Notes: a model not told the origin generated them from the sequence alone. A DNA stretch of 20,831 bases from a virus (IMGVR_UViG_3300033388_003195:1-20831), one strand, 5' to 3'. Counted from the stretch's first letter, positions 10,546 to 20,831 are shown. Translations and numbers: made by a program.

Positions 10546-10634
10546 TGGAGGAAGGTAGAGGAGTCGAACCCCTAACACACAATGGTCACTACGGTATTCA
10601 ACACCGTTTGCCAGCCAACCCAGCAGTACCTTCC
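10546..10634 (-). tRNA. tRNA-Ser(UGA)
   Basis: Read on the minus strand, a full class II cloverleaf is visible. The acceptor stem is GGAAGGT/ACCTTCC with the CCA tail encoded (10548-10546). The D arm is TGC/GCA. The anticodon arm is ACGGT/ACCGT with loop GTTGAAT, giving anticodon UGA. A long variable arm contains a short stem (TGAC with GTTA). The T arm carries TTCGA. Long variable arm plus UGA means serine. The discriminator base reads as U, unusual for serine tRNA. Confidence 0.85.
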
Positions 10635-10773: not shown

Positions 10774-12798
10774 TTATACAAATAGCTTATCAACTATCTT
10801 ACGAGTCTCTTCAATGTAGTACTCGTGATTTATGAGGCTAGGGTTAAAATCGTCCATATTTGAACAGTCAGTTACCATCAACCCTACATTTATACCAAAC
10901 CGCCTGTAAGGACATGTAACACTTGGTTTAGGTACTAACTTATACTTACCTGATTTTGGCTTGCCACCACGCTTAACGAGGTCGTGCGCACCTGTTACCT
11001 CATGTTCATAATGATCCCCGGTATCCCACAGCTTAACCATAGCGAGGAGGGGTGGCATTATCTTAGTTAAATACCCGCCTTTTATACTGACATAGTATCT
11101 GGATATATTTTGCAATTTAATTTCATCATAACAAACTAAATCAGCACCCCATGTAATGGGTTTACGTATTACTAAACTGGAACTACGAGGAACCTTCGTG
11201 CGCAACATAAAATCCATATAGTCAGTGTGATTATAGATGAACTCAGGTATCGGTGTACCGTGTACAAGAGCAGCTTCAGCAGCCATTGCTACGACACGTT
11301 GACTATGATTTTTATGCCAAGGTAATTCACGAGTGCCTGGATCTTCTAATGCGGTTACATAAGCATAACAACCAATACGTTTTACTTTACCGTCCAGTTT
11401 TACAGCCAGGTAATTATTGACATCCCTCACGGCTATTTTACTGTACTGTACATCCTCAAGCTCTAATTGAGTCATTGTTTCCCATTTATCAGTAAGATGG
11501 TCAACACGGTCTAACTGATCACGTGGGCACAGGAAAGTTAAACCATCAGTATTAATTTGAATCATTTTAAAGCCAGGTATTTGCATTAGTCTCTCAGCTA
11601 ACATGCAAAGTAATAGCTGACCATTAATTGTAATGGCACAGGTGAATTTTAAATCTAAAAATGTTTTACTATAATAATTTGCTGATTCACCGTACACACC
11701 ATTGAGTGCTAATTTAAGCATTGCATTTTCAGGTGAACCTTTCTTGGTTGCCTTACGTTGTTTATAAATATCCTCATAAATATCACAGAATTTTTCACCT
11801 AAATGTTCAGGGTATAGATTGTTTTTAATAGCAAGGTTTGGGTAATAACTAGCAACGTCTATGTCAATTAACGCACAGGTGTCTGAGTCGGTAATAATTG
11901 CATCATTAACTGACCCATGTATACCACCTGCACCAAAAACAAAAGTAAATCCATTGATTGTACAATTAACATCCTTAAATGCACCCTTGAGTGACAAATT
12001 ACCCTTTTCATCTTTACCATCTATCGTTTGGTTGTAGAAGAATTTGTGGATGCGTTGGAATTCAGGATGCTCGAATTGAATGTAAGGTAATAATATGTCA
12101 GCTACTCGTATAGAATCCCTGATTGTCCTTACATTTTTAGTTCGTATACCCGCTTTATCCAACTCCATTATAAAATAATCTTTACCAATTTTAGTATCAT
12201 TGTGATTGGTAAAATCCCGATCATATTTTTTAGATAATTTATCTCTAAATTTAATGGCGGGTAATGAGTGTTTATAAAACTTAATAGTCTCACTGACATC
12301 ATGTTTATTATAAACGCACAGGTGTCGTGCCTGGTCATACGTCACAGGATACCGTGGGTCATACGGTAAATCCTTAATGTTGTGTGACTTCATGTTAAAT
12401 TCAAGCAGTTTTAAACTGGTGCGTTTAGCCTTGTTATCAAAGTGGTGAATTCTATACAAGTCACATTGAGGTATAAATCTTTGGTCAGGCCAAAGATTAT
12501 ACTTATAACCCGTGTGATCTTTTATAATAAGTTGTGATGTTGCGTACAGTGTTTCATTAGTCACCCTACCAGAATTAAGCATGATAAAATGTATTAATGT
12601 ATAATCATAACCTTCGTTGTTATAACCAACAAGCCTAACTTTAAAATGTTGAAGTGCTTGTAAGAATTCAAAAAATTCTTGTGCCTGGTTTACCCAATCA
12701 CTTATCTCAAAAAACCATTCATCACCAGTTTCTATACGGGTAAAAGCACAGCTAAAAAAGTTAAGGTAACATTCTATGTCGTAGCAATAGTCGTTCAT
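10774..12798 (-). CDS. family B DNA polymerase with 3'-5' exonuclease domain
   Basis: 674 residues. Replicates phage DNA. Exonuclease motifs: Exo I Asp7 and Glu9 (YDIECY), Exo II around Asn60-Asp65 (YNNEGYDY), Exo III Tyr163-Asp167 (YNKHD). Polymerase motifs: A at 312-321 (DIDVASYYPN, catalytic Asp314), B at 362-370 (KLALNGVYG), C at 414-419 (QINTDG). In motif C the usual DTD is NTD; the retained Asp418 is the essential metal ligand. FGAGGIHGSV at 288-297 is also typical of phage members. The protein is shorter than cellular family B enzymes. Start ATG 12798 has AGGACAGG upstream. tRNAs lie downstream on the same strand. Confidence 0.92.
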   Translation of the reverse strand: MNDYCYDIECYLNFFSCAFTRIETGDEWFFEISDWVNQAQEFFEFLQALQHFKVRLVGYNNEGYDYTLIHFIMLNSGRVTNETLYATSQLIIKDHTGYKYNLWPDQRFIPQCDLYRIHHFDNKAKRTSLKLLEFNMKSHNIKDLPYDPRYPVTYDQARHLCVYNKHDVSETIKFYKHSLPAIKFRDKLSKKYDRDFTNHNDTKIGKDYFIMELDKAGIRTKNVRTIRDSIRVADILLPYIQFEHPEFQRIHKFFYNQTIDGKDEKGNLSLKGAFKDVNCTINGFTFVFGAGGIHGSVNDAIITDSDTCALIDIDVASYYPNLAIKNNLYPEHLGEKFCDIYEDIYKQRKATKKGSPENAMLKLALNGVYGESANYYSKTFLDLKFTCAITINGQLLLCMLAERLMQIPGFKMIQINTDGLTFLCPRDQLDRVDHLTDKWETMTQLELEDVQYSKIAVRDVNNYLAVKLDGKVKRIGCYAYVTALEDPGTRELPWHKNHSQRVVAMAAEAALVHGTPIPEFIYNHTDYMDFMLRTKVPRSSSLVIRKPITWGADLVCYDEIKLQNISRYYVSIKGGYLTKIMPPLLAMVKLWDTGDHYEHEVTGAHDLVKRGGKPKSGKYKLVPKPSVTCPYRRFGINVGLMVTDCSNMDDFNPSLINHEYYIEETRKIVDKLFV

Positions 12799-12881
12799 TT
12801 AAGCCTGTCCTGACAATCTTAATTAAGAATCATTCTCACGTCTGTATAGTATAGAATAGATGTTTTCTATATAGCATAGTG

Positions 12882-13025
12882 TTAGCCGCCTTTCCGCAGG
12901 CGTTTAATATATTTATCAACCTTCAGTTTTTCCGCATCACTTAAATAAAACTCTCTGCGCTTTAAGCCAAGATCCGCTCTGCGTTTTCGCAGAGCTTCTT
13001 GGCGCTCTTGGCTTGATTTAGGCAT
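12882..13025 (-). CDS. small DNA-binding-like regulator, putative
   Basis: 47 residues, ATG at 13025, overlapping the end of the 73-residue gene by 8 bases. Basic N-terminus (SSQERQEALRKRRADLGLKRR) followed by REFYLSDAEKLKVDKYIKRLR. This beta-strand-then-helix layout is like ribbon-helix-helix proteins and many short phage/plasmid regulators. It is a candidate for binding the palindromic operator at 13296-13307, which would make the two-gene unit autoregulated (inference). Nested inverted repeats lie in its 5' coding part (12964-13014). Confidence 0.55.
   Translation of the reverse strand: MPKSSQERQEALRKRRADLGLKRREFYLSDAEKLKVDKYIKRLRKGG
12964..13014. repeat. nested inverted repeats in the regulator gene
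   Basis: Outer 9-bp arms AAGCCAAGA (12964-12972) and TCTTGGCTT (13006-13014) enclose a perfect 8-bp hairpin GCTCTGCG-TTTT-CGCAGAGC (12976-12995). Both fall within the first ~20 codons of the 47-residue gene. No T-run follows on the coding strand, so attenuation or mRNA structure is more likely than termination. Confidence 0.65.
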
Positions 13026-13239
13026 TTAATTTACTGTAGACTCTTAATTTCATTATATTTCTAATTTTTGCGCCTTTTCCGAATTCGTGCCTGCAACTAT
13101 CAACAATGCTTCCGATATTATTTTGCTCAAACAGAAGTGCTTTTTTAAAAAAAGCAAGCGCATTTAACCCTGTTATTTTAACTCCTTCTTTTTCGGCAAT
13201 AGATAGTGCTTTTTCTAACGTTGAATCATTTATACCCAT
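13018..13239 (-). CDS. hypothetical small protein, first gene of autoregulated pair
   Basis: 73 residues. ATG 13239 is chosen because GGAG sits six bases upstream; an upstream TTG at 13251 overlaps that ribosome site and is unlikely. Helical sequence (STLEKALSIAEKEGVKITGLNALAFFKKALLFEQNNIGS), one Cys (DSCRHEF), basic C-terminus. It is the first gene downstream of the strong minus-strand promoter at 13286-13313 and is translationally linked to the 47-residue gene. No family recognised. Confidence 0.6.
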   Translation of the reverse strand: MGINDSTLEKALSIAEKEGVKITGLNALAFFKKALLFEQNNIGSIVDSCRHEFGKGAKIRNIMKLRVYSKLNA

Positions 13240-13285
13240 AAGTTTCTCCAATTTGCTAAAGAAGATTTCCTTAGCTCATGAATCT

Positions 13286-13349: not shown

Positions 13350-13434
13350 CTAACAAATAATTCAACCTGAGCCGCTCGATTTACGGCCTGTTTCCTGCAA
13401 GCAATCGTGCCTACAGGTTAATAAGGCGGTTAGG
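13350..13434. other. attC-like recombination site 1 (array end)
   Basis: Outer arms CTAAC (13350-13354) and GTTAGG (13429-13434), inner arms AACCTG (13364-13369) and CAGGTT (13414-13419), with 9-base spacers on both sides. This is the R-L...L-R layout of integron attC sites. On the plus strand the left end (TAACAAATAATTCAA) looks like the canonical left end of attC. Its first 18 bases, CTAACAAATAATTCAACC, recur exactly at 15475-15492. Confidence 0.65.
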
Positions 13435-13448
13435 TTGCCTACAGTGTT

Positions 13449-13643
13449 TTAATCCTCGTCAACCCATTCATGCTCATTTATACGCTCAGCATCTTCGACA
13501 ATTTCACTCAATGATTCCGCATCCTCTCTTCTCGACATTCTAAATGCTTTGTGGACATCAATAGTCCAATCCCAATAACCATTTTGTATCGTCAAATAAT
13601 TTACATCAGTTTCTGTTTTTTCTAAAAGCCATGAAGTGCTCAT
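13449..13643 (-). CDS. small cassette protein, unknown
   Basis: 64 residues, ATG 13643 with AGAGA upstream. The sequence (STSWLLEKTETDVNYLTIQ, YWDWTIDVHKAFRMSRREDAESL, EHEWVDED) matches in style a group of short acidic proteins seen in phages and mobile elements (W.W...A..F.RREDA, ending in HEW); no function is established. It fills the space between attC-like sites 1 and 2. Its 5' leader shares AATTAAAATAAAAAA with the cassette at 14551-14763. It is the only minus-strand gene of the array whose stop is separated (by 15 bases) from the core site. Confidence 0.65.
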   Translation of the reverse strand: MSTSWLLEKTETDVNYLTIQNGYWDWTIDVHKAFRMSRREDAESLSEIVEDAERINEHEWVDED

Positions 13644-13674
13644 AATATATTCTCTCTTAAATTAAAATAAAAAA

Positions 13675-13770
13675 CCTAACAACTAGCTCCAGCGGAAAAA
13701 TAACCCTTCCCACCTGTTCGTAAAATTCGCCAGCTCACACGGGTTATTTCCCGCTGAGCAAAAGGTTATA
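13675..13770. other. attC-like recombination site 2
   Basis: Left arm ACCTAAC fits the RYYYAAC core (CTAAC at 13676-13680) and the right arm is GTTAT (13765-13769). Inner arms CAGCGG (13690-13695) and CCGCTG (13751-13756) are perfect, and AATAACCC (13699-13706) pairs with GGGTTATT (13741-13748) with a few unpaired bases between, as in attC hairpins with extrahelical bases. Nine- and eight-base spacers separate inner and outer arms. Confidence 0.6.
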
Positions 13771-13789
13771 TTTAAAAAAGGAAAAGCAC

Positions 13790-13993
13790 ATGGAAATGAA
13801 TATCGTAAAAATTGAACCATATACAGATTCACCAAAATTTGAATATATGTGGGTAACTGTATCAGTCTCAGAAGATACAGAATCACGCCCATGCATTAAA
13901 GGCGAAATAAAAGTGCCAATTAAAAAACAAGACATAACAATATCTAATCTCGAAAATCTTGTGTTTGAGAAGGTGAAATCCTTTCTATCTTAG
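13790..13993 (+). CDS. small cassette protein on the opposite strand, unknown
   Basis: 67 residues, ATG 13790 behind AAGGA, 20 bases after the right arm of attC-like site 2; ATG 13796 is an alternative. Sequence MEMNIVKIEPYTDSPKFEYMWVTVS..., GEIKVPIKKQDITISNLENL, ending VKSFLS: a compact alpha/beta-looking protein without signal or membrane segment. The only plus-strand gene in the array, so it has the orientation that classical cassettes would have relative to these sites. Its 3' end overlaps a minus-strand ORF in the same cassette. Confidence 0.6.
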   Translation: MEMNIVKIEPYTDSPKFEYMWVTVSVSEDTESRPCIKGEIKVPIKKQDITISNLENLVFEKVKSFLS

Positions 13994-14078
13994 TGTAAAT
14001 AACATCATGATTATTCAAGTCATCAAGAATGGTATTAATTATAAATTTTCGCAACTTATTTAATATGAGCTTAAACAT
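13944..14078 (-). CDS. small ORF convergent with the previous gene, unknown
   Basis: 44 residues, ATG 14078 with a good GGAG eight bases upstream, directly downstream (minus strand) of attC-like site 3. Helical and basic start (MFKLILNKLRKFIINTILDDL), polar end. Its last 50 bases overlap the plus-strand gene tail to tail. Spacing from core site to ATG is like that of the other minus-strand cassette genes, so it may be real, but coding evidence is thin. Confidence 0.35.
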   Translation of the reverse strand: MFKLILNKLRKFIINTILDDLNNHDVIYTKIERISPSQTQDFRD

Positions 14079-14103
14079 TGTTTCGTCTCCAAATTTAAAA
14101 AAA

Positions 14104-14168
14104 TATAACAAAACGCTAAACCGGATCGGCGCAAAAAGACGCGCCTTCCCAGTTAGCTCGGCGTTATG
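14104..14168. other. attC-like recombination site 3
   Basis: Outer arms TATAAC (14104-14109) and GTTAT (14163-14167). Inner imperfect arms CTAAACCGG (14116-14124) and CCCAGTTAG. Central stem GGCGC (14128-14132) with GCGCC (14141-14145) and loop AAAAAGAC. At 65 bp it has the size and symmetry of short attC sites. The stop codon of the 114-residue gene (14164-14166) is part of its GTTAT core. Confidence 0.65.
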
Positions 14169-14508
14169 TTTCTAAAAACGGTTTAATTAAAAATCTAGGT
14201 CTTTCGCATAGCGTCTTAATATTTCCAAGGCTTTTGATTAACATTATCCTTACAGGGTCTTCATGAAAATTTCTTTCTGCTTTTCTAATATCTTCTGAAC
14301 TCGGGTCAATACTCCATCCGTGGTCAAATAATTCTTTTTTAATCCTGCCCATCAACATATCACTATACTGTTCCAGCGCTAATTCTGCGCTCTCAATTAA
14401 ATGTCTATGCTCAGGTTCAACGTAAGGCGGCAACATAACAAGTCGTTCAAAATCAGACGCCTCACCCTTGCTATCTACTGCACTTTCATCGGTTTTATCA
14501 TTCATCAT
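14164..14508 (-). CDS. cassette protein, unknown
   Basis: 114 residues, the longest of the array. ATG 14508 (or 14505) behind AAAGGA. Acidic N-terminus (DKTDESAVDSKGEASDFERL), then PPYVEPEHRHLIESAELALEQY and a helical part (MGRIKKELFDHGW, RKAERNFHEDPVRIMLIKSLGNI). No membrane segment. The stop codon TAA is supplied by the core of attC-like site 3. No family recognised. Confidence 0.65.
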   Translation of the reverse strand: MMNDKTDESAVDSKGEASDFERLVMLPPYVEPEHRHLIESAELALEQYSDMLMGRIKKELFDHGWSIDPSSEDIRKAERNFHEDPVRIMLIKSLGNIKTLCERPRFLIKPFLET

Positions 14509-14536
14509 CGCATCCTTTAAGTTTATTTTAAGCGCC

Positions 14537-14554
14537 GTTTAACATGGTGGTTAT
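14537..14554. other. attC-like site 4, truncated (cores only)
   Basis: GTTTAAC (14537-14543, matching the RYYYAAC core) and GTTAT (14550-14554) are only six bases apart, at the boundary between two cassette genes. On the minus strand GTTAAAC fits GTTRRRY. The hairpin body is missing, so this may be a deleted attC or a simple-site junction. Confidence 0.4.
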
Positions 14555-14763
14555 ACGTCAACAGCATGAATAGTAATATCTCGATAAGAACCAGTTATGT
14601 TAATTGTCTTTTTTTCTGATCCTTCCGTGTAATTCTTGTCCATTGAAACCACTAACTCATTCACGCCTACATACAATCCAGTGATAAGAGAAAGAGCGCT
14701 ATTTATGTCTTCTTTAGCGTATTCAGTAAACAACTCTTCAAGTTCTTCTTTTTTAATTGCCAT
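14551..14763 (-). CDS. small cassette protein, unknown
   Basis: 70 residues, ATG 14763 behind GGA. N-terminus acidic helix (IKKEELEELFTEYAKEDINSALSLITGLY), then a likely beta part (GVNELVVSMDKNY, KTINITGSYRDITIHAVDV). Soluble, no signal. The stop TAA lies inside the GTTAT core of site 4, and the leader carries AATTAAAATAAAAAA shared with the 13449-13643 gene. Function unknown. Confidence 0.65.
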   Translation of the reverse strand: MAIKKEELEELFTEYAKEDINSALSLITGLYVGVNELVVSMDKNYTEGSEKKTINITGSYRDITIHAVDV

Positions 14764-14788
14764 GCTTTTTCCTAATTAAAATAAAAAA

Positions 14789-14910
14789 TATAACAATAAA
14801 ATTAACGCAGATCAAAAACCCTTACCTTCTTTCGGTCTGCTCACTATCCTACTAAACCTATTCCAAACAAATACCCTATCGGTTTTTGCCTGGTTATTTC
14901 GGGGTTATAT
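14789..14910. other. attC-like recombination site 5 (long)
   Basis: Outer arms TATAAC (14789-14794) and GTTATAT (14904-14910). Inner arms AAAAACC (14814-14820) and GGTTTTT (14881-14887), with partial pairing between (AACGCAG side against CCTGGTT). About 122 bp with a ~60-base apical region, like the long VCR-type attC sites. The stop codon of the next gene (14905-14907) lies in its right core. Confidence 0.65.
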
Positions 14911-15138
14911 TGCTACCCAAAGTGAATCAGGTAGCCAAACATTATTATCGTTCTTTTCAAAAGCGTCACCTGCTGTAAACACTAAATCCACTTCTTTTCC
15001 TTCTATGCTTTTTAGAAATTGTTTTAACTTTACATATTCCAGCCAGCCCCACATTTTCCATACAGCGCTTAATTCGCCTTTAAGCTCACTAGAAGTCTGG
15101 TATCTAGCTATCAAGTTATCCCTCATTAATGCCTTCAT
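14905..15138 (-). CDS. small cassette protein, unknown
   Basis: 77 residues from ATG 15138, which has GGAG eight bases upstream; the frame is open to a TTG at 15159 but no ribosome site supports it. Sequence: helical, Trp-rich middle (AVWKMWGWLEYVKLKQFL), then EVDLVFTAGDAFEKNDNNVWLPDSLWVAI. Soluble. The stop TAA is part of the core of attC-like site 5 and the start lies 22 bases from the core of site 6, so the gene fills its cassette exactly. Confidence 0.65.
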   Translation of the reverse strand: MKALMRDNLIARYQTSSELKGELSAVWKMWGWLEYVKLKQFLKSIEGKEVDLVFTAGDAFEKNDNNVWLPDSLWVAI

Positions 15139-15159
15139 AATTTCTACTCCGTAGTCCAA

Positions 15160-15244
15160 TATAACAAGGCGTTTAAGAAAGATGGCCTTGTCTGGTTTTA
15201 AGTTTCCTGTGCGAGTAAATCGCCACAGGTTATAAAAAGGTTAG
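15160..15244. other. attC-like recombination site 6
   Basis: Left end TATAACAAGGCGTTTAAGA (from 15160) closely resembles the left end of Vibrio-type attC repeats. The right core is GTTAG (15240-15244). Two internal hairpins are visible: ACAAGGC/GCCTTGT (15164-15170/15185-15191), and CCTGTG-CGA...TCG-C-CACAGG (15206-15229) with one bulged base. Left and right halves pair poorly with each other, so it may be a hybrid of two sites; the right half resembles that of site 1. Confidence 0.6.
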
Positions 15245-15450
15245 TTGTCATAATTAACCTTAAGTCTATTGAGAGTTTCTGGCTTCTGGTAATAATATTG
15301 TAATTCACCAGCCCACAATGAAACATGAACTCTATACTGTATATCATGGTTTTCTTTATTTGCTACGTGATACCACGCATATCCACCATGCTTGCTAAAG
15401 CTTCCAAACTCATATTTAATATCTAAATCTCTTTCATGCTTGTTACTCAT
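15241..15450 (-). CDS. small cassette protein, unknown
   Basis: 69 residues, ATG 15450 with a weak AGAGAT upstream, about 25 bases from the half-site at 15475. Aromatic-rich and probably beta (YEFGSFSKHGGYAWYHVANKEN, VHVSLWAGELQYYYQKPE), ending NRLKVNYDN. The stop TAA is supplied by the GTTAG core of site 6. First cassette after the helicase gene in the direction of transcription. Function unknown. Confidence 0.65.
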   Translation of the reverse strand: MSNKHERDLDIKYEFGSFSKHGGYAWYHVANKENHDIQYRVHVSLWAGELQYYYQKPETLNRLKVNYDN

Positions 15451-15474
15451 ATAAATATCTCTAGTAATTTAAAA

Positions 15475-15492
15475 CTAACAAATAATTCAACC
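15475..15492. other. attC half-site at the helicase end of the array
   Basis: CTAACAAATAATTCAACC is an exact copy of the left end of attC-like site 1 (13350-13367), in the same orientation, so the array is bracketed by an 18-bp direct repeat. Only the one half is present. The helicase stop codon (15487-15489) lies inside it. Confidence 0.65.
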
Positions 15493-17166
15493 AGACCGTG
15501 AGTTTCTGACCTTCTCTGTTAAATTAATTGCTAGTCTCTCACTAAGAGTTTGTGCTTTTAAAATATTTATACTAAACACTCGTTCAAATTCAAGCTGCAC
15601 TGTCTTTACAGTCCATTCATTGGCTACAGCAACACCATGACACCAGTGTTGCATATGACCACGTAATATTGTTTGTGCGTTCTGTCTTTTAATATGATTG
15701 TTAACTGCTGAGTCTCTTACTATAACTGGTGCGTTTTGCATATTATGTCGAACTGCTTCAGGTGGTCTATCAACCTTTTTACGCTCAGTCATTAATGTGT
15801 TTATAAAATTAATGTCCAACTCAACAAGATTACCTTCATCAAATTGAAAGTCTTGTTGTGCAGCATTTAATTCATCTTTAGTTTCTTCGTGGTTACATTC
15901 ATTACACACAAACATGTTTTTAACCGTGGGGGTATAGTAATTAAAACACTCAGGACATACACGACCTTCAGGTTTCTCACCATCACTATTACTACGTTTG
16001 GTTGAATCTAATGTCCACACTGGATCATCATGAGGTGCACCGTAAATACAGTGACGTTTAACATTACCTACATGATCAATTAAAACACCGTAATATTTAC
16101 CTTCACAAAGTCTGAGCATTCGACCAAATTGCTGTTTAAATAACGCATATGATTCAGTCTTACGTAGCATGATAACAACTGAAACAGCAGGTACATCAAA
16201 CCCTTCACCAAATAAATCACAATTAACCAGGTTCTTTATTCGACCATCCTCAAATGCTTGTAACCCTTTAATTAAATCACGGGTAGGGGTCTTACTCGAC
16301 AATGACAGGGAGGGTATGCCTGCCTCGTTAAATTGTTTAGCAACATGGTCAGAGTGTGCAATATTTACGCAAAAAGTAATTGCTTGTTGCCCATCCACAA
16401 GACGTTGATAATGTTTTACTGCATCACCTGTGATGTCATTTACATCTGTCTTTTCTGCTAATTTTTTTTGATTCCAATCACCGTTTGCTGTTATATTCAC
16501 ACCTGATGTGTCAAGTAATTGTGGTGGTACATATATTTTATAAGGTGACAAATAACCTCGACTAATTAATTCACCCATACTGCTACCAACAATCATGTGA
16601 TGGAATATTCCATCAGCCTGGACACCCAGACCTTTACCATCTGCACGTATCGGTGTTGCGGTAACACCCAACCCTCTTGCATTGCGTAAATATTTGACAC
16701 ACTTGCCGTGGGAGTTATCATCAAGACAATGATGAAACTCATCCCCTAACCAAACTGTCACTTTATCCCTTACACAATCAACCAAACCTTTATCAATACG
16801 TCTAATAAAGGTTTGTATGCTGGTGAGAATTATAGGGCTTGTTTCATCATAAAATGACTTACCAAATTTAAGCATTTGCTGGTCGGTAATCATTTTTCTA
16901 GTTTTATTTGCGCAAATAAAACTGTGTGGTACACCCATTACACAAAGCGACATTGATATTTGACTCAGTAGAACGTCACGGTGAGCAAACACCATACACA
17001 TTTCACCGTTAAGCATTGCCTCTCTTGCAAGCATGGCTTTTATAATTGTCTTACCTGCACCAGTGGGTAGCACCAGGAGAATGTATTTTATCAACATCCT
17101 CCATGCTTCGTTAACTGAGTTAACTGAGTTGGTTTGGTAATCACGCGGTTGTATTATTTGGGTCAT
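15487..17166 (-). CDS. DEAD/DEAH-type superfamily 2 helicase
   Basis: 559 residues. ATP-dependent helicase, probably for phage DNA replication or recombination. Visible: QxxxxN-type start (RDYQTNSV), Walker A LPTGAGKT at 33-40, Walker B DEFH at 142-145, motif III TATP at 169-172, a second RecA domain with FGEGFDVPAVSVVI (about 319-332), and motif VI QQFGRMLR at 345-352. A zinc ribbon follows: Cys404, Cys407, Cys421, Cys424. The C-terminal 130 residues are a phage-type extension. ATG 17166 overlaps the stop of the tiny upstream ORF (ATGA). The last codons and stop lie within an attC half-site, so the native C-terminus may have been altered by recombination. Confidence 0.92.
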   Translation of the reverse strand: MTQIIQPRDYQTNSVNSVNEAWRMLIKYILLVLPTGAGKTIIKAMLAREAMLNGEMCMVFAHRDVLLSQISMSLCVMGVPHSFICANKTRKMITDQQMLKFGKSFYDETSPIILTSIQTFIRRIDKGLVDCVRDKVTVWLGDEFHHCLDDNSHGKCVKYLRNARGLGVTATPIRADGKGLGVQADGIFHHMIVGSSMGELISRGYLSPYKIYVPPQLLDTSGVNITANGDWNQKKLAEKTDVNDITGDAVKHYQRLVDGQQAITFCVNIAHSDHVAKQFNEAGIPSLSLSSKTPTRDLIKGLQAFEDGRIKNLVNCDLFGEGFDVPAVSVVIMLRKTESYALFKQQFGRMLRLCEGKYYGVLIDHVGNVKRHCIYGAPHDDPVWTLDSTKRSNSDGEKPEGRVCPECFNYYTPTVKNMFVCNECNHEETKDELNAAQQDFQFDEGNLVELDINFINTLMTERKKVDRPPEAVRHNMQNAPVIVRDSAVNNHIKRQNAQTILRGHMQHWCHGVAVANEWTVKTVQLEFERVFSINILKAQTLSERLAINLTEKVRNSRSG

Positions 17167-17249: not shown

Positions 17250-17483
17250 TTCACCACCCTCTCACCAGTTTCAATCAAGTTACCAAAACAAATCTCACCG
17301 GACACTAACAAACCACAGGTTATTTTTAATTCAATTTTATTAGGTTTTTTATAAATACACAGTCCTGCAAATATTCTTAAACTTGATGACAATTCTCTTT
17401 CACATGAGATACCCTGACCGGCTTTGATACCCCGACCGGCTTCGATACCTGTACCGGCTTTCACTAAAATGTACCGGCTTTCG
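17246..17483 (-). pseudogene. C-terminal part of the hexapeptide-repeat gene, out of frame
   Basis: The frame resumes KAG repeats (VKAGTGIEAGRGIKAGQG) and then a non-repeat C-terminal domain of ~50 residues (ISCERELSSSLRIFAGLCIYKK..., ITCGLLVSGEICFGNL) ending at 17246. It has no start of its own. The domain, with three Cys, looks like the natural end of GIKAG-type phage proteins. Two 20-base units at 17453-17492 each lack one T compared with the 21-base in-frame version near 17889-17910, which shifts the frame. The stop overlaps the next ATG. Confidence 0.55.
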
Positions 17484-17907
17484 CTAAAATGTACCGGCTT
17501 TGATACCCTGACCGGCTTTGATACCCCGACCGGCTTTGATACCCCAACCGGCTTCGATACCATCACCGGCTTCGATACCCCAACCGGCTTCGATACCCCA
17601 ACCGGCTTTGATACCCTGACCGGCTTCGATACCATCACCGGCTTCGATACCCCAACCGGCTTCGATACCCCAACCGGCTTCGATACCATCACCGGCTTCG
17701 ATACCCCAACCGGCTTCGATACCATCACCGGCTTCGATACCTGTACCGGCTTTGATACCCTGACCGGCTTTGATACCCCGACCGGCTTTGATACCCTGAC
17801 CGGCTTCGATACCCCGACCGGCTTTGATACCCCAACCGGCTTTGATACCCCAACCGGCTTTGATACCTGTACCGGCTTTGATACCTGTACCGGCTTTCGC
17901 TAAAATG
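17417..17907. repeat. 18-bp tandem repeat array, 27 units
   Basis: 27 copies of ACCGGCTT-type units counted on the plus strand, at 17417, 17435, 17453, 17473, 17493 and then every 18 bases to 17889. The consensus is ACCGGCTT(C/T)GATACC plus four variable bases (CCAN, ATC, TGT, CTG, CCG types). Units are contiguous, without spacers. Units at 17453 and 17473 are 20 bases long and contain CTAAAATGT, as does the longer last unit. Confidence 0.95.
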
Positions 17908-20070: not shown

Positions 20071-20831
20071 ATGGCAAATCGTACTATTTTTACAAGTATT
20101 TTTCGCACTTCATTTCCACATTTAGATAAACCTCATGCACAGAACCCGACTGATGTACCTAAGTATGGTCTGGCAATGATGTTCCCTAAAAATGGAATCT
20201 GCCGTGTAAACAATCAACCGAGTGACAGCAGTAATGTTGTTGCTGCACTGGATGAAGTTTGCATGGAAGAATTCCAGATGGGTTTCTACGCTGCAATTGC
20301 ACCAGGTATGGGCATTAATTTCCCACCTAATTTTAAGGATGGTGATACCGTCTTTGAGAAAGATCAGTTGGGTAACCCTATCCCTGGTGCAATTGCACCA
20401 CAGTCAGCAGGCATGTGGATTCTCGGTGTTAAAAATGCCGAACCTGTAGGTACTGTGGGTGCAGATGGTCAAACTGATGTTTTACCTACTGCTATTTATG
20501 CAGGTTGTTGGGCACGAGCGCAACTTGAAATATCTGCTTATACCGGTAAACAAGGTCGGGTTGTAGTAGCTAAAATATTAAATGTCCAATTGTGTTATGA
20601 CGATGAAAAGTTTGGTGGTCGTCCAGTTGTACAAGCTGCATCACAAGCATTTAGTGGCATGGCTATTACTGACACCAATGTTCCAATGGGTACAGGTCAA
20701 GGCAGGGCTATGCCACAGGTGCAACAGCAGCCCGTGGTGCAACAGCAGCCCGTGGTGCAACAGCAGCCCGTGGTGCAACAGCAGCCCGTGGTGCAACAGC
20801 AGCCCGTGGTGCAACAGCAGCCCGTGGTGCA
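20071..20831 (+). CDS. DUF2815 ssDNA-binding protein, partial (runs off window)
   Basis: Open from ATG 20071 to the window end, about 253 residues seen, no stop. Likely the phage single-stranded DNA-binding protein. Family features: start FTSIFRTSFPHLDKP, KYGLAMMFPK, then PTAIYAGCWARAQLEISAY, and VVVAKILNVQLCYDDEKFGGRP, the region typical of DUF2815. After about residue 215 follows a tail of perfect VQQQPV repeats. The start has a modest AAGGATAT upstream, 12 bases after the nuclease stop, so both are one operon. The unusual tail replaces the acidic C-terminus expected of ssDNA-binding proteins, but the true end is not in view. Confidence 0.85.
   Translation, partial: MANRTIFTSIFRTSFPHLDKPHAQNPTDVPKYGLAMMFPKNGICRVNNQPSDSSNVVAALDEVCMEEFQMGFYAAIAPGMGINFPPNFKDGDTVFEKDQLGNPIPGAIAPQSAGMWILGVKNAEPVGTVGADGQTDVLPTAIYAGCWARAQLEISAYTGKQGRVVVAKILNVQLCYDDEKFGGRPVVQAASQAFSGMAITDTNVPMGTGQGRAMPQVQQQPVVQQQPVVQQQPVVQQQPVVQQQPVVQQQPVV
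20719..20831. repeat. perfect 18-bp tandem repeat encoding VQQQPV, at window edge
   Basis: Unit GTGCAACAGCAGCCCGTG, six identical copies from 20719 plus five bases of a seventh, reaching the window end. In frame with the DUF2815 gene; 18 bases keep the frame whatever the copy number. Confidence 0.95.

Follow-up and report, generated by a model that had tools for sequence, protein, structure and literature searches.

We analysed a stretch of virus DNA of 20,831 nucleotides (IMGVR_UViG_3300033388_003195:1-20831), which is the whole virus record and is referred to below as the window. Tail genes lie at its left end, and a DNA polymerase gene (10774-12798, minus strand) and a helicase gene (15487-17166, minus strand) flank, on the left and on the right respectively, an array of small genes separated by imperfect palindromes that resemble attC, the recombination site of integron cassettes. 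The nearest named relatives of the polymerase and the helicase, at about 50% identity, come from phages infecting Vibrio, Aeromonas, Shewanella and Pseudoalteromonas. The candidate attC sites (A to G, with cores R'' and R') and the open reading frames (ORFs) of the array are given here from left to right, together with the scores of the scanner and of the phage-trained covariance model described below.

12881..12887, plus strand: lone R'-like core GTTAGCC at the left edge, with a 6-base match to R'' of A; holds the stop of ORF 12882-13025
12882..13025, minus strand: ORF of 47 amino acids (aa), weak match to a phage transcriptional-regulator family; stop within the 12881 core
13018..13251, minus strand: ORF of 77 aa, without phage homologue
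13348..13435, plus strand: site A, R'' AGCTAAC, R' GTTAGGT, extrahelical C; scanner 26.5, covariance model E=0.0073
13449..13643, minus strand: cassette A-B gene, 64 aa, opposite to attC
13674..13771, plus strand: site B, R'' ACCTAAC, R' GTTATAT, extrahelical C, long stem; scanner 26.0, covariance model E=0.077
13790..13993, plus strand: cassette B-C gene, 67 aa, the sole cassette of the window in standard orientation
14103..14169, plus strand: site C, the most canonical, R'' ATATAAC, R' GTTATGT, extrahelical A; scanner 34.9, covariance model E=3.3e-9 (44 bits)
14164..14508, minus strand: cassette C-D gene, 114 aa, inverted; stop TAA within R' of C
14433..14556, plus strand: site D, doubtful, R'' at 14433-14439, within the start of the 14508-14164 gene
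14551..14763, minus strand: cassette D-E gene, 70 aa, inverted; stop within R' of D; match to phrog_18086 (E 4e-4)
14788..14910, plus strand: site E, long, weak fold, extrahelical T; scanner 23.9
14905..15159, minus strand: cassette E-F gene, 76-84 aa, inverted; stop within R' of E
15159..15246, plus strand: site F, cores intact, L boxes unpaired; scanner 13.6
15241..15450, minus strand: cassette F-G gene, 69 aa, inverted; stop within R' of F
15473..15538, plus strand: site G, attC-like hairpin over the stop and 3' end of the helicase gene; right core mutated (GCTA); fold z -2.3

As reference attCs we took those of two annotated integrons, in Vibrio anguillarum phage Va_90-11-286_p16 (L020) and Shewanella phage M16-3 (L024), whose geometry runs RYYTAAC, a 5-base spacer starting with AA, three paired bases, one extrahelical base, three paired bases, the body, a mirror arm, a 5-base spacer and GTTRRRY. 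Sites B, C and E matched this geometry base for base on the plus strand, and A had a six-base right spacer. All four carried TAACAA on the left and GTTA on the right, with the L-box bases fully paired (6/6) and a single extrahelical base, in each case at position 16 exactly (C in sites A and B, A in site C and T in site E). A scanner trained on the Vibrio and Shewanella reference attCs only, and run on both strands of the whole window, gave its four best scores to C, A, B and E, in this order, with D coming next; shuffles of the region led us to expect 0.013 matches at a score of at least 24 and 0.08 at a score of at least 20, and the numbers observed were 3 and 5. Because the integrase cuts the core between G and TT, the two ends of a cassette in an integron array are complementary to each other, and the integron references accordingly showed 9.5, 9.0 and 8.3 complementary bases across cassettes (9.5 being the Vibrio value) versus 4.75 within sites. 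In the window, comparison of R' of each site with R'' of the following one yielded 47 complementary bases over the six cassettes (a mean of 7.8 per cassette), versus 31 for the cores of the same site (5.2), and just 2 of the 720 possible re-pairings of the cassette ends reached 47 bases.

Two covariance models were also applied. The first (R1), a short one built from the arms of the reference attCs, found nothing significant in the window (its best match was C, with E 0.29), probably because the long sites exceed its span. The second (R2) was built from 28 attCs of other phages and contained neither window nor bacterial sites; its top three matches in the window were C, A and B, with the E-values listed above. 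This model also detected attCs in Vibrio, Colwellia, Rheinheimera and Alteromonadaceae loci, as well as all four sites of phage H101, and found nothing in seven control phage loci, which argues that phage and bacterial attCs belong to one structural class. An exact search of the viral contigs for the attC left arm (TAACAAATAATTCAACCWGA) gave no match, and an Rfam scan of the window returned nothing relevant.

The remaining sites were less regular. R'' of site D matches the end of cassette C-D (AACATAAC), with 8 bases complementary to R' of C, but the site is doubtful because the scanner score of 20.8 was obtained for 14433-14543, that is, with a different right end, because its fold was at shuffle level (not significant) and because it overlaps the start of the 14508-14164 gene. 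Site E was weak in the covariance model on both strands (10.4 bits on the plus and 13.8 bits on the minus strand). Site F is a decayed or hybrid attC, in which R'' matches R' of E over 9 bases and R' matches R'' of G over 7 bases, and the left 21 bases of site G are 95% identical to those of site A. Folding of the single-stranded bottom strand backed B, C, F and G (z of -4.9, -2.2, -4.6 and -2.3, respectively) and did not back A, D and E.

Neither a tyrosine recombinase nor an integron integrase was found in the 20.8 kb record with the PF00589 and TIGR02249 profiles, the record being probably partial. The complete-integron arrangement of an intI gene plus attI is thus absent from this record, intI being missing. 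What it does hold is the composition of a cluster of attC sites lacking a neighbouring integron integrase (CALIN): at least two attC sites with R''/R' cores, L boxes and the extrahelical base (A, B, C and E), and cassette ends complementary across the cassette (47 versus 31 bases). An earlier note on this DNA had proposed an integron-type cassette array in a phage with no integron integrase in the window, and both claims were borne out, the first by the scanner, the cassette-end complementarity and R2, which provided the covariance-model hits that the note had named as a check and that R1 did not reach. Its other details fared unevenly. Among the six palindromes it had delimited, A, B, C and E possess the full attC geometry, D had been given wrong limits (14537-14554) and F is defective, and the single-stranded folding that it proposed as a check backed part of the sites, as described above.

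The top strand of the window attCs is the plus strand, since TAACAA and the extrahelical base sit at the left, as in the Vibrio and Shewanella references. In a standard cassette the gene lies on that same strand; five of the six window cassette genes lie on the minus strand, opposite to their attC. In 4 of the 5 inverted genes (those ending at 14164, 14551, 14905 and 15241) the stop TAA is the complement of the GTTA core, and likewise a core holds the stop of the leftmost ORF of the array (12882-13025). The note was right in describing genes whose starts lie 20-35 bases away from one core and whose ends fall in the following one; this is a sign of the inversion, which the note itself had missed.

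To place this arrangement among other arrays, IMG/VR was scanned with attC patterns (scans 1 to 4) and GTDB genomes with the first pattern only, and all loci were passed through one pipeline (scanner score of at least 21, cassette-end complementarity of at least 6, longest ORF). The 96 bacterial loci with arrays (here and below, among the matches listed) contained 412 cassettes with the gene on the same strand as attC and 26 on the opposite one. Viral scan 1 gave 41 same and 36 opposite, with the two kinds sorted by locus (same strand prevailing in 19 loci, opposite strand in 15), and viral scans 2-4 gave 5 same and 115 opposite; the difference between scans 2-4 and bacteria has a Fisher P of 3e-86, which is nominal because some loci share a record and the cassettes of one array, treated here as independent, are not so. 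Among loci with at least 2 called cassettes, mostly opposite arrays accounted for 0/76 in bacteria and 24/25 in viral scans 2-4. A tyrosine-recombinase match was present in 12 of the 16 same-strand viral records of scan 1, including full or broken integron integrases, as expected if these records were prophages and host flanks. Such matches were found in 1 of the 15 inverted-array records of scan 1 (L031, in which one cassette was called; no match in the remaining 14) and in 3 of the 24 from the later scans, none of them an integron integrase. One further candidate, the recombinase of L054, was set aside: it has the appearance of an ordinary phage integrase and its locus is a single site with no array.

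That the inverted strand is the coding one follows from the Shine-Dalgarno-like motif found before 116 of 155 inverted ORFs versus 6 of 77 ORFs on the other strand. Stops fell within the core in 87/124 cases in the inverted phage class, and the 5' flanking gene was co-directional with the cassette genes in 32/38 loci. Genes for terminase, portal, head or annealing proteins, from differing phage types, are found on the array-bearing contigs, and the longest inverted array seen comprises 11 consecutive phage attC sites in 3.6 kb (L051, 3655-7253). With 5/6 genes inverted and 4/5 stops in the core, the window resembles this class (115:5 and 87/124, respectively).

We then asked what these arrays have in common with one another. 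Some attC families are common to different phage contigs, with 89-98% identity over about 84 bases; the window attCs share no family of this kind (~85 nt) with those of other phages. Matches to the sampled bacterial loci were obtained for 3 of 74 sites, all from H101, which is weak evidence for a separate pool because the bacterial sample had been chosen by one pattern. Six genes were common to different phage loci, at 73-95% identity. In these shared units the similarity sets in 0-18 bases ahead of the R' cut and ends near the R'' core of the following site, and in 6/6 neither attC body is common, their identity being that of random attC pairs. In bacteria the downstream attC was kept up to the cut in 32/42 shared units (Fisher P 0.0007). 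At the level of individual loci, the pairs L338/L351, L076/L352, L058/L335, L082/L346 and L258/L341 have shared genes that end at the cores and attC bodies that differ. Two more viral pairs were identical across gene plus attC and are probably copies of one phage. Textbook cassette excision carries one attC along, so the attC-less sharing in phages is left unexplained by it.

As for the cassettes of the window itself, the protein encoded at 15241-15450 is 48-54% identical to proteins of four Vibrio phages, and neither of the two that were inspected has an array. A tblastn search of the cassette proteins gave no match in plasmids and, in phages, matches for this one gene only, which had no match in the viral contigs; no Pfam family scored above the cut-off. 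The same cassettes in other orders, which the earlier note had suggested looking for, were not found for the window; for the class, genes shared between different arrays were found.

Phage attC clusters are already known. Qi et al. (2023) described 17 CALINs in phages, found that 5/6 of the tested attCs of virulent phages recombined with IntI1, and showed that the attCs of phage H101 recombine with IntI1, the bottom strand better than the top (PMC9892861). These are likewise attC arrays without integrase in a phage, and by scanner and model the H101 attCs belong to the same class as ours. The genes of H101 were called typical in direction in that paper, whereas we found four scanner sites on the plus strand (L095, 25919-27987) and annotated genes there on the minus strand, opposite to the attCs; the genes of TJE1, which that study also covered, have the standard orientation. 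Systematic inversion, stops in the core and attC-less exchange are not described in its main text (PMC9892861). The sedentary chromosomal integrons of Vibrio, Shewanella, Colwellia and Rheinheimera resemble the phage arrays in attC sequence and fold, cassette-end complementarity and small genes without known function, but their genes run with attC, the attC travels with the gene and the integrase is part of the system. An experimentally inverted integron of V. cholerae (PMC11023631) and an excision study (PMC5371416) place the bottom strand on the lagging template, as it may be here, with high excision; there, however, the whole array is flipped against the fork, whereas in the window each gene is flipped against its own attC. 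In the open-licence papers searched we found no description of inverted phage arrays or of attC-less exchange, and phage CALINs in PMC9892861 only; novelty is to this extent unproven.

Outside the array, an 18-base unit is repeated in tandem at 17408-17897 (27 copies, 86% matches), directly upstream of the helicase gene, and is open in several frames (e.g. GFDTPT and GIEAGW repeats). A perfect 18-base tandem repeat (6.3 copies, encoding VVQQQP) occupies 20718-20831, at the end of the last ORF, and crosses the end of the record, so it may be what stopped the assembly. A tRNA-Ser gene (TGA anticodon; 10546-10634, minus strand) adjoins the polymerase gene. The array could be viewed as an insertion between helicase and polymerase, since Pseudoalteromonas phage B8b has a gap of ~220 bp there; we did not rely on this argument, because gene order varies among other relatives.

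We consider it probable that this stretch holds a phage-specific type of CALIN, an integron cassette array that brings no integrase of its own, and that a host integrase shuffles it in trans. Small accessory genes sit between the attC sites and, being co-directional with the flanking helicase and polymerase in all cassettes but one, would be readable from phage transcription. A host integron integrase would act in trans during infection, fold the attC bottom strand and cut at the cores, which would result in a modular exchange of genes among phages. It has been reported that the attC bottom strand folds and recombines more when placed on the lagging-strand template, where excision is strongly raised, and that chromosomal integrons keep this strand on the leading-strand template (PMC5371416, PMC11023631). 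Through the inversion, the recombining bottom strand would become the gene-coding strand and, where the gene runs with the fork, the lagging-strand template, a placement that we infer for this phage. Exposing the strand in this way would benefit a lytic phage that has no integrase and stays in the cell only briefly. Expression from a phage operon accounts for genes that follow their flanks, but not for genes that oppose their attC, because a whole array can be inserted either way. We would go further only tentatively, to the possible if doubtful view that phages keep a cassette pool of their own, that inverted genes move in it as attC-less units cut at both cores and that the inversion was selected for exposing the recombining strand.

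Several observations weigh against the proposal. The exchange without attC bodies, seen in 6/6 units of other phages, is unlike textbook excision by IntI, and the mechanism may differ from that of host IntI. The array may have lost its activity, given that three of the seven sites (D, F and G) show degeneration and that the gene of one cassette (13790-13993) has the standard orientation; for site E, the weak covariance-model match slightly favours the wrong strand; and the cassette genes of the window are absent from every other array found. We read the window array as an old, partly decayed member and outlier of the inverted class, because its attCs fall in no shared family, D, F and G look degenerate and its genes were found in no other array.

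The same degenerate sites, the heterogeneity of the attCs, the absence of an integrase from the record and the earlier report of phage CALINs (PMC9892861) would also suit a fossil, that is, cassettes of a host integron that were picked up in a single chance event, have been decaying since and play no part in recombination. This we regard as somewhat unlikely: host cassettes are in standard orientation in ~94% of cases, and capture would keep the orientation of gene and attC whichever way the array is inserted. Moreover, cassette-end complementarity and sites A, B, C and E are still intact, and long intact arrays, with as many as 11 successive sites, exist in other phages. The bounds of the shared units, at the R' cut and the next R'', with attC bodies unshared in all six and the downstream attC mostly kept in bacteria, would instead fit a route of the phages' own, in which an unrecognised enzyme cuts both cores or an annealing-type recombination uses the cores as linkers; an annealing protein is encoded in one array phage. 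We judge this route unlikely, as it draws on 6 pairs only, most of these records (which are fragments) have no tyrosine recombinase, and L-box pairing and the extrahelical base, neither of which linkers would need, are kept in dozens of phage attCs. Intergenic RNA hairpins resembling attC (weak terminators or processing sites) would explain palindromes between the small genes of a likely operon and the strong folding of B and F, but are very improbable given complementarity that runs across cassettes and not within sites, cores and an extrahelical base like those of integron attCs, a phage-trained model that cross-detects bacterial attC, and folds of A and E no better than shuffles.

Under the preferred reading, a phage-specific cassette array mobilised by host integrases, these arrays bear on how integrons are viewed. 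Integrons have been treated as bacterial devices and their phage copies as stray captures, but dozens of phage loci consistently show the opposite architecture, which implies that phages have long made use of such arrays. Two questions become testable in this way: the strand orientation favoured by selection for cassettes that ought to be mobile, and whether cassettes arise and move without carrying their own attC. In addition, a large set of tiny phage genes, some of which may act against the host, becomes findable through their flanking sites.

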